Assembly: GCF_001874145.1 (NCBI RefSeq)
Contig: NZ_MPCX01000004.1
Location: forward strand, 166,776 to 230,775
DNA from: Lacinutrix sp. MedPE-SW
GTDB taxonomy: Bacteria > Bacteroidota > Bacteroidia > Flavobacteriales > Flavobacteriaceae
Length of the DNA stretch: 64,000 nt
Direction: 5' to 3'
The notes below the pieces were generated by a model that saw only the letters and a program-made list of their open reading frames with translations, made no database searches and was not told the DNA's origin. Positions 53,997-56,667 of this stretch are shown piece by piece. Every line of letters begins with the position of its first letter. The stretch's first letter is position 1. The position numbers were made by a program, and so were the translations under genes.

Positions 53997-54920
53997 ATGA
54001 AATCATTACATCTTATTTTATTATTACTTTTTGGTAATTTTCTTTTAGCACAAGAAATTAATTACTCTAGTAAAGAAATAGCGATTAACACATTAATAGA
54101 TGGTACGCTTTTAACTCCAAAAGATAATACTAAAGCTAGTTTGGTAATTATTATTGCTGGCTCTGGACCAACAGATAGAGATGGAAATCAAAACTTTTTA
54201 AAAAGTAATGCTTTAAAAAAATTAGCAATTGGCTTAACAAACAATAACATTGCAACTTTTAGATATGATAAACGTATTGTAAAACAAATTAGAAAAAACA
54301 AAGTTGATAAAAATATTATGTTTGATGATTTTGTTACAGATGCTAAAGCTGTAATAGATTATTTTAAAACAAATTATGCCTTTAAAAATATATACGTTGC
54401 AGGACATAGCCAAGGAAGCCTAGTAGGTATTATTGCTGCAAAAAATAGAGCCGACGGTTTAATTTCTATCGCTGGTGCAGGCCAGGCAATAGATCAAGTT
54501 ATTTTAGAGCAAATAGAAAAAACAGCACCAATGTTTACAGAAGATACTAAACGTATTTTTGGTGTTTTAGCAGAAGGCAAAACAACAACTAATTTTCCAC
54601 CTGCTCTAGCAAGTATATTTAATTTAGATGTACAACCATTTATAGCAAATTGGATGAGTTATAAGCCTCAAGAAGAAATTAAAAAACTGGAAATGCCAAT
54701 TTTAATAATTAATGGCACTAAAGATTTACAAGTAAGTGAAGCCGAAGCCAAATTATTAAATGATGCTGCTAGAACATCTACCCTAAAAATTATTGAAAAC
54801 ATGAACCATGTTATGGTGCCAATAACTGGTGGCGATTTAGAAAACTCTAAATCTTATAATGAAACTGCAAGAACTTTATCACCACAATTAATAGATAGTA
54901 TAGTAAAGTTTATAAAATAA
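53997..54920 (+). CDS. secreted alpha/beta hydrolase
   Basis: IIAGSGPTDRDGNQ, VAGHSQGSLVG, INGTKDLQV. Confidence 0.92.
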   Translation: MKSLHLILLLLFGNFLLAQEINYSSKEIAINTLIDGTLLTPKDNTKASLVIIIAGSGPTDRDGNQNFLKSNALKKLAIGLTNNNIATFRYDKRIVKQIRKNKVDKNIMFDDFVTDAKAVIDYFKTNYAFKNIYVAGHSQGSLVGIIAAKNRADGLISIAGAGQAIDQVILEQIEKTAPMFTEDTKRIFGVLAEGKTTTNFPPALASIFNLDVQPFIANWMSYKPQEEIKKLEMPILIINGTKDLQVSEAEAKLLNDAARTSTLKIIENMNHVMVPITGGDLENSKSYNETARTLSPQLIDSIVKFIK

Positions 54921-54939
54921 AAAAAGCAGTAAATACCTA

Positions 54940-55056
54940 AATAGAAAAAGCATTCCAATACGGAATGCTTTTTCATACTAACCAACCAAAAATATGTAAT
55001 TAAAACTCGTAATTTAAAGTAACCACACTCTAAAATAGTCATTGTTTTTAATTACA
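54940..55056 (-). ncRNA. candidate sRNA A (about 117 nt) from a sigma-54-like promoter (TGGCAC at 55077-55082) to a hairpin terminator
   Basis: TTTGGCAC-ACATA-TTGT, conserved body, GAAAAAGCATTCC-GTAT-TGGAATGCTTTTTC. Confidence 0.5.
54944..54974. terminator. bidirectional hairpin terminator
   Basis: GAAAAAGCATTCCAATACGGAATGCTTTTTC. Confidence 0.8.
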
Positions 55057-55142
55057 CTAAATATAAAACAATATGTGTGCCAAACTTTTTTTTGTCATTA
55101 TTAATTAACTGAATATTAAGAAAGTATTATCATAAATTAATA

Positions 55143-55261
55143 AATAGAAAAAGCATTCCAAGACGGAATGCTTTTTCATACTAACCAACCAAAAATATGA
55201 TAAATAACCACTCGTAATTTAAAGTAACCACACTCTAAAAAAGTCGCTGTAGTTATTCACG
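55143..55261 (-). ncRNA. candidate sRNA B (about 119 nt) from a sigma-54-like promoter (TGGCAC at 55282-55287) to a hairpin terminator
   Basis: TTTGGCAC-ACTAA-TTGA at the same spacing to body and hairpin as copy A. Confidence 0.5.
55147..55177. terminator. bidirectional hairpin terminator
   Basis: GAAAAAGCATTCCAAGACGGAATGCTTTTTC. Confidence 0.8.
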
Positions 55262-55356
55262 ATTAGTATATTTCAATTAGTGTGCCAAACTTTATTTACT
55301 TGTTTTTTTTATACAACTTTTAATTCTGTATTTTGCAAAAACTTAAACTAACAACT

Positions 55357-56667
55357 ATGGATAATACACCTTTATTTACAAACGATACTATTGTATTTGG
55401 ATTATTAATGCTAGCCTTAGGCTTTATCTTTTATACAGAATCTATTGAAAAAGGATTCTGGCCAAAATTCTATAAAATTGTTCCTGGCCTATTTTTAGCT
55501 TATATGATTCCTGCAATATTTACAACATTTGGGTTAATAGCTCCAGAATGGGAAACGGTAAAAGCAAGTGGTGAAATTGTAACAGAAAAATCTAATCTTT
55601 ATTTCGTTTCAAGTCGTTATTTATTACCAGCAGCATTAGTTTTAATGACTTTAAGTATAGATTTAAAAGCCGTATTTAATTTAGGTTGGAAAGCACTTAT
55701 TATGTTTTTTACAGGTACTATAGGTATTGTAATTGGTGGGCCAATAGCTATTTTATTAATATCTATTATTTCTCCAGAAACCGTTGGTGGTGCTGGACCA
55801 GATGCTGTATGGCGCGGACTATCTACACTTGCAGGAAGTTGGATTGGTGGTGGCGCTAACCAAACTGCAATGTTAGAAATTTACGGATATAACCAAAAAC
55901 TTTATGGAGGTATGGTATTTGTAGATATTGTTGTAGCCAATGTATGGATGGCAATATTATTAATTGGTATTGGTAAACGAGATAAAATAAACAAATGGCT
56001 AAAGGCCGATACTTCTTCTATTGAAGAGCTAAAAGTGAAAGTTTCTACTTTTTCTGAAAAAGTAAAGAGAAATCCATCTGTTACAGATATGATGATTCTT
56101 GGTGCAATTGCATTTGGCACTGTTAGTATCGCTCATTTTTTAGCTGAATTTTTAGCACCATTTTTCGAAAATGTTGTTGCAGGAATACAATCTCCAACTA
56201 CAAAAAATATATTTACATTCTTAGGTTCAAAATTCTTTTGGATGATAAGTATTTCAACATTAATAGCCATTCTACTATCTTTTACAAAAGCCAAAACTTA
56301 CGAAGGTGCTGGAGCAAGTAAATTTGGAAGTGTGTTTATTTATATATTAGTTGCTAGTATTGGTATGAAAATGGATTTAACACTAATATTTGACAATGTT
56401 GGTCTAATTGCCGTAGGTATTGTATGGATGACTATTCATGCAGTGTTATTAATATTTGTAGCCAAAATAATTAAAGCTCCATATTTCTTTTTAGCAGTTG
56501 GTAGTCAAGCTAATGTTGGTGGTGCTGCTTCTGCTCCAATTGTAGCTTCTGCTTTTCATCCATCCTTAGCAACTGTAGGTGTTTTACTTGCCGTATTTGG
56601 TTATGCTGTTGGAACCGTTGCTGCAATTGGTTGTACAATTTTAATGGAATTAGCCGCTGCTGGTTAG
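55357..56667 (+). CDS. DUF819 family membrane protein (start trimmed to the ATG; track begins at TTG 55333)
   Basis: multi-TM, GGGANQTAMLEIYG, GSQANVGGAASAPIVASAF. Confidence 0.9.
   Translation: MDNTPLFTNDTIVFGLLMLALGFIFYTESIEKGFWPKFYKIVPGLFLAYMIPAIFTTFGLIAPEWETVKASGEIVTEKSNLYFVSSRYLLPAALVLMTLSIDLKAVFNLGWKALIMFFTGTIGIVIGGPIAILLISIISPETVGGAGPDAVWRGLSTLAGSWIGGGANQTAMLEIYGYNQKLYGGMVFVDIVVANVWMAILLIGIGKRDKINKWLKADTSSIEELKVKVSTFSEKVKRNPSVTDMMILGAIAFGTVSIAHFLAEFLAPFFENVVAGIQSPTTKNIFTFLGSKFFWMISISTLIAILLSFTKAKTYEGAGASKFGSVFIYILVASIGMKMDLTLIFDNVGLIAVGIVWMTIHAVLLIFVAKIIKAPYFFLAVGSQANVGGAASAPIVASAFHPSLATVGVLLAVFGYAVGTVAAIGCTILMELAAAG

Follow-up and report, generated by a model that had tools for sequence, protein, structure and literature searches.

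Tandem units with sigma-54-type promoters predicted to encode multicopy small RNAs in Lacinutrix, with an ECF sigma-factor mRNA as predicted target

Introduction

What do the two tandem direct repeats between a hydrolase gene and a divergent membrane protein gene of Lacinutrix sp. MedPE-SW encode, and on what might their product act? The original prediction, made from the letters of a 64,000-nucleotide stretch (the window), took them for duplicated small RNAs (sRNAs) driven by sigma-54. The Flavobacteriaceae are a dominant group of marine polysaccharide degraders and, to our knowledge, very few of their sRNAs have been characterised. Sigma-54 sRNAs (Qrr, CrcZ/Y) and multicopy sRNAs (FopS) are known kinds; the present sRNA family and its predicted sigma-54-to-ECF circuit appear to be new. 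The repeats quite probably encode sigma-54-activated, multicopy base-pairing sRNAs that silence a conserved ECF sigma-factor operon, and these sRNAs probably also repress further mRNAs.

Organization of the two units

A repeat search of the window recovers two families, 54930-54996/55133-55199 (94% identity) and 54998-55092/55203-55297 (79% identity), and the tandem arrangement can also be read off the sequence. On re-reading, a single base distinguishes the 59-bp blocks 54938-54996/55141-55199 from each other, and a single base likewise the 35-bp blocks 55006-55040/55211-55245, as had been claimed. The common offset of 205 bp holds for the later blocks; for the first block it is 203 bp, because unit B has two extra nucleotides in its stem. 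The hairpin said to end each copy is present: in A and B alike, the two 13-bp arms of the terminator form a perfect inverted repeat. It is largely supported that each repeat is one unit, in which a short spacer separates a -24/-12 promoter from a structured RNA of about 114 nt with an intrinsic terminator (Table 1). By its position, the terminator of unit A may also serve as the terminator of the facing hydrolase gene on the plus strand.

Table 1. Predicted elements of the two units and the flanking genes (positions in the window).
Feature	Position	Strand	Basis or remark
Alpha/beta hydrolase gene, convergent flank, outside the sRNA	53997..54920	+	open reading frame
Unit A predicted sRNA, ~113 nt	54944..55056	-	sequence, fold, covariance-model match
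Unit A intrinsic terminator	54944..54974	-	sequence, inverted repeat, fold
Unit A invariant single-stranded UUUUUGGUUGGUUAGUAUG, predicted seed	54974..54992	-	alignment, pairing tests
Unit A closing stem P1, 3' arm	54994..55006	-	fold, arm-pairing test
Unit A inner hairpin P2 with conserved GUGUGGUUAC	55013..55034	-	fold, alignment
Unit A closing stem P1, 5' arm	55044..55057	-	fold, arm-pairing test
Unit A sigma-54 -24/-12 element, TTTGGCAC-ACATA-TTG	55069..55084	-	motif scan; kept in relatives
Unit B predicted sRNA, ~115 nt	55147..55261	-	sequence, fold, covariance-model match; inferred start 12 nt past -12
Unit B intrinsic terminator hairpin and U tract	55147..55177	-	inverted repeat, fold, alignment
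Unit B invariant single-stranded UUUUUGGUUGGUUAGUAUG, predicted seed	55177..55195	-	alignment, pairing tests
Unit B closing stem P1, 3' arm	55198..55211	-	fold, arm-pairing test
Unit B inner hairpin P2 with conserved GUGUGGUUAC	55218..55239	-	fold, alignment
Unit B closing stem P1, 5' arm	55249..55261	-	fold, arm-pairing test
Unit B sigma-54 -24/-12 element, TTTGGCAC-ACTAA-TTG	55274..55289	-	motif scan; kept in relatives
DUF819 membrane protein gene, divergent flank, outside the sRNA	55333..56667	+	ATG at 55358 likely

Distribution and gene neighbourhood

A DNA search finds the unit in 12 of 12 other sampled genomes of the genus at 72-98% identity, which excludes chance; there are usually 2-6 head-to-tail copies, in keeping with the proposal of multicopy regulators. 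Several near-identical copies at a 272-bp period in one genome (G006) look like a recent tandem expansion, and in other genomes the tandem copies clearly differ from each other. The covariance-model search that had been suggested for related genomes, run with a model built from the transcript alone (promoter excluded), matched 160 of 301 sampled Flavobacteriaceae genomes. Order and phylum samples, which are mostly finished Flavobacteriaceae genomes, gave almost no matches beyond this family, and a large genus (g147, probably Flavobacterium) has almost none. In a pattern scan of named genomes, Lacinutrix algicola carries four units on one contig, and among the matches listed are Winogradskyella, Psychroserpens, Algibacter, Bizionia, Formosa, Gelidibacter, Flavivirga and others, with three tandem copies in Olleya and four tandem copies plus one in Kordia algicida. 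A match in Thiomicrospira lies inside a coding region and looks like chance.

Within Lacinutrix, the units sit between the hydrolase gene and the divergent DUF819 gene. The upstream neighbour varies in other genera and, as assigned by eye from sequence, is a DUF819-like gene, a gene starting MKEEKIIVPANGYL, small lipoprotein-like genes or the end of uvrA. Because the units are conserved while the neighbouring genes change, they would be under selection of their own. A conserved AATATGATATTAAAATGATATCATAAAGATAT lies between the divergent MKEEKIIVPANGYL gene and the sRNA in many of the loci L130-L205 (Winogradskyella, Psychroserpens, Bizionia, Kordia), and from its position looks like an operator of that gene.

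Structure and noncoding nature of the RNA

Both RNAs fold more stably than their dinucleotide shuffles (z of -5.2 and -6.5; 0 of 200 shuffles as good). Each consists of a hairpin closed by a stem, then the invariant UUGGUUGGUUAG and then the terminator, and in the alignment of the family the nearly invariant UUGGUUGGUUAG sits between P1 and the terminator. The P1 arms of A and B pair with their own partners at -10.6 and -12.9 kcal/mol, and poorly when swapped between the two units (-4.3 and -5.8 kcal/mol). Over 73 non-redundant units, cognate arms average -8.92 kcal/mol against -5.50 +/- 0.25 for permuted partners, with 0 of 10,000 permutations as low, in a test that preserves base composition and not relatedness. 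The terminator stem also shows compensatory changes on both sides.

The 34-bp middle that separates the two copies has really diverged, as described, yet not by free drift: it holds the 5' side of P1, and is a closing stem kept paired by matching changes in both arms. An origin as neutral repeats is contradicted by this covariation and by the conservation. No conserved reading frame was found across relatives. The claim that these are sRNA genes is supported by structure, compensatory stem changes, a terminator, conservation amid changing neighbours and the lack of a conserved reading frame. The features of a trans-acting sRNA are found, namely an own promoter and intrinsic terminator, a stable conserved fold and a noncoding sequence; computationally, there is also an exposed seed that is conserved and can pair with the start regions of mRNAs.

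The promoter and sigma-54

The motif TTTGGCAC-N5-TTG is exact in both units, and allowing one mismatch adds no match in the whole window. It occurs exactly only 7 times in the 3.04-Mb genome; the remaining five sites (L002-L006) all lie about 35-82 nt ahead of genes for exported proteins, and would outline a sigma-54 envelope regulon. Outside the genus, the 67 model matches comprise 51 class-I and 16 class-II units, the latter with a GGGGUGGUUCCC-type hairpin. TGGCA[CT]-N5-TT stands at the expected place in 46 of the 51 class-I units, where shuffles lead one to expect 0.41, with fixed N5 spacing and at a near-fixed distance. The class-I logo reads TTTGGCAC/T-N5-TTG, in which TGGCA and TTG are invariant and the base following TTG is seldom C. 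The element is missing from two class-I genomes that belong to a single genus (L046, L047) and from all class-II units except one of 16; a housekeeping TAnnTTTG is present in 12 of the 16 class-II units.

The genome (G000) contains a single rpoN (one PF04552) and three strong matches to PF00158, at C3:22874, C19:54607 and C20:146357, so that the check on rpoN and enhancer-binding proteins turns out positive; all 80 genomes examined have rpoN, however, whether or not they carry the sRNA, and its presence does not discriminate. An LptE-like gene adjoins one of the three enhancer-binding protein genes, an arrangement also seen in Flavobacterium psychrophilum (PMC9723704). The mapped SM4 promoters of that species have the same -24/-12 form, and its mapped sigma-54 promoters belong to genes for chaperones and for exported and envelope proteins, besides one sRNA, Rfp36 (PMC9723704). 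Homologous loci, to which the original prediction had pointed, retain both the TGGCA[CT] element (in the class-I proportion given above) and the terminator stem. The proposed sigma-54 promoter is supported by this conservation, by the single rpoN with the three enhancer-binding proteins and by the five exported-protein sites; a minority of relatives are without the element. No upstream activator or enhancer motif common to all gene contexts was found in the regions upstream of the units; the k-mers GATATCA and ATGAAAGAAGAAAAA, considered as an sRNA enhancer, are tied to one context (the divergent MKEEK... gene).

The seed and a predicted ECF sigma-factor target

The seed had been guessed to be GGTTGGTTAGTATG. 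This guess holds in part, the conserved core being UUGGUUGGUUAG, for which a conserved target is predicted. The antiseed AACCAACCA falls within the -40 to +20 region around a start codon at 10 of 66 sites in this genome and 10 of 87 in G002; other A5C4 words do so at 31 of 711 sites (p 0.0013 and 0.009, respectively). It shows no genome-wide enrichment (68 sites vs 66 for the reversed word, a poor control because it overlaps the antiseed). Target prediction, made on sampled stretches of the genome, places the antiseed near the start of two genes in both genomes, those of an MFS-type transporter and of an ECF sigma factor. In two Lacinutrix genomes (L257/L391), AACCAACCA is located 13-14 nt ahead of the transporter start, which makes this gene a second candidate target.

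The ECF protein belongs to NF058625 (GFO_1088 family), and the next genes encode a small membrane protein and a member of DUF4252. An operon of the same layout in Porphyromonas gingivalis, PG_0214-0216, is upregulated in a PG_0686 mutant (PMC10101095). In 29 of 32 genomes of other genera, the cognate pairing of seed and ECF start ranks within the best 5% relative to 101 background start regions, the gene having been chosen from two Lacinutrix genomes and genomes of the same family not being independent. The ECF start region is most often ranked first among the 101, and lies outside the best 5% in G256, G085 and G281. Along the sRNA, pairing is strongest at the seed, and along the mRNA it is strongest at the start codon (-15.4 vs about -7 elsewhere on the mRNA); the P2 loop gives a lesser secondary peak (-10). 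Shuffled seeds pair less well with the ECF start in 31 of 34 cases. ACCAA is found in 82% of tested ECF leaders vs 2-7% of other leaders. Across about 30 genera the ECF start codon retains the seed complement while the remaining leader diverges (mean gapless identity 0.37). Among sRNA-negative genomes, the ECF start is in the best 5% for 4 of 10, and because some of them also carry ACCAA there, another sRNA or factor may use this leader.

Proposed mechanism

An enhancer-binding protein answering an envelope-type signal would activate sigma-54 RNA polymerase at TTTGGCAC-N5-TTG, a use of this element that sequence and conservation support. Each unit would then give rise to an RNA of about 114 nt in which P1 encloses P2 (with its GUGGUUAC loop), followed by the exposed UUUGGUUGGUUAG and the terminator; this structure is supported by covariation. 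The exposed strand is predicted to pair with ACCAA repeats just ahead of the start codon of the ECF sigma factor (NF058625), and the pairing would block translation of its operon. We infer the production of the RNA, its control by sigma-54 and an envelope-responsive activator, and the translation block. Extra copies would raise dose and speed. A and B have the same seed and the same P2 loop and should therefore act alike, which suggests dosage rather than separate targets. It is a more tentative proposal, about which we are somewhat doubtful, that in much of the Flavobacteriaceae sigma-54 directly silences the ECF sigma factor of the NF058625 operon through dosage-tuned tandem sRNAs, making two alternative sigma programmes mutually exclusive.

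Alternative explanations

The same sigma-54 sRNA family might have its main target elsewhere, UUGGUUGGUUAG serving mainly as the landing site of an RNA-binding protein (RbpB-like RRM) or pairing with other mRNAs, e.g., those of transporters. A landing site would fit the presence of the motif beside the terminator in class II, which has other bodies, and at one or more mRNA 3' ends (L317). Pairing with other mRNAs would fit the start-region matches in the MFS transporter (two Lacinutrix genomes), a catalase-like protein and a receptor-like exported protein. Both are made rather unlikely by the complement retained at the ECF start codon in otherwise diverged leaders of some 30 genera.

Far less probable is that the TGGCAC element is not used by sigma-54 and that the sRNA promoter is a housekeeping one. 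This would account for class II and the L046 and L047 units, which are without the element, and for TAnnTTTG in 12 of 16 class-II units, but it leaves unexplained the 46 of 51 conservation with fixed N5 and near-fixed distance, the location of all five other exact genomic sites ahead of exported-protein genes, and the shared form of the mapped SM4 promoters of F. psychrophilum (PMC9723704). Hardly credible is an origin as neutral repeats, a mobile element or a small protein gene. Tandem copies, the near-identical 272-bp units in L017 and an ATG-led 62-codon frame over copy A might suggest one of these; however, the ATG is absent in B, neither start codon nor frame is kept in relatives, the stems change in a compensatory manner, and promoter and terminator are conserved. 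The preferred explanation thus remains that of sigma-54-activated sRNAs acting on the ECF operon.

Relation to known systems

A search of the whole window against Rfam 15 returned only two tRNAs above the gathering threshold, a permissive Rfam search of 8 relatives gave chance-level matches to sRNA families only, and no published description of the family was found in the open-licence literature. The Qrr RNAs of Vibrio share with the proposed Lacinutrix pair sigma-54 dependence, multiple copies, base pairing and a conserved seed; they differ in belonging to Gammaproteobacteria, in being Hfq-dependent and LuxO-activated, in sequence and in having copies that are mostly not tandem. CrcZ/CrcY of the Pseudomonadaceae are likewise sigma-54-dependent paralogous sRNAs, but they sequester Hfq via CA motifs, have no base-pairing seed and are of other sequence. 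The MicA/RybB-type sRNAs form the noncoding arm of an envelope regulon and repress mRNAs at the start codon, a further likeness; they are driven by sigma-E and target porin mRNAs, not a sigma factor.

Rfp36, a predicted sigma-54 (SM4) sRNA of F. psychrophilum, is also a Flavobacteriaceae sRNA with a -24/-12 promoter and is co-expressed with exported-protein genes; unlike the Lacinutrix pair, and compared by description only, it is a single listed locus (PMC9723704). FopS/GibS of Bacteroides thetaiotaomicron are multicopy paralogous sRNAs of the same phylum, Bacteroidota, and the FopS block translation starts (PMC11697453). By description the FopS are set apart by sigma-ABfr promoters, a length of about 65-70 nt, scattered copies and SusC targets (PMC11697453), and the Lacinutrix units, with a sigma-54-type element and about 114 nt, fall outside them.

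The RNA is outside all Rfam 15 families and yet occurs in more than half of the sampled Flavobacteriaceae genomes. A sequence-defined sRNA, its promoter and its predicted target are available together for testing, and suggest an RNA link between sigma-54 and an ECF sigma factor in a phylum whose sRNA regulation is poorly understood.

Class II and related 3' modules

Members of the second sRNA class (L085, L086, L087, L090, L091, L094-L098, L100, L103-L106) have in common a GUGGUU hairpin loop, UUUGGUUGGUUA and a terminator. Their promoter is mostly TAnnTTTG instead of TGGCAC, and they are unmatched in Rfam. Units with a sigma-54-type promoter, UUGGUUGGUUAG and a terminator, but a different RNA body, are located right after the end of a uvrA-like gene in L157 (Flavobacterium microcysteis), L170, L189 and L207, and are candidates for the Flavobacterium Rfp36 type. 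Outside the Flavobacteriaceae, two Sphingobacterium species (L137, L192) have a unit in common that contains TTTGGCAT-N5-TTG and TTGGTTAGTTAG and ends in a terminator. The idea that UUGGUUGGUUAG before a terminator forms a 3'-end module throughout the genome was rejected, as few cases were found (9 of 96, three sRNA units included, vs 6 of 119 in the background). At L317 (G000:C17:84446-84475, minus strand), 3' of an EF-hand-like gene, ATTTTTGGTTGGTTAGTA precedes a terminator-like hairpin, as in the 3' module of the sRNA.
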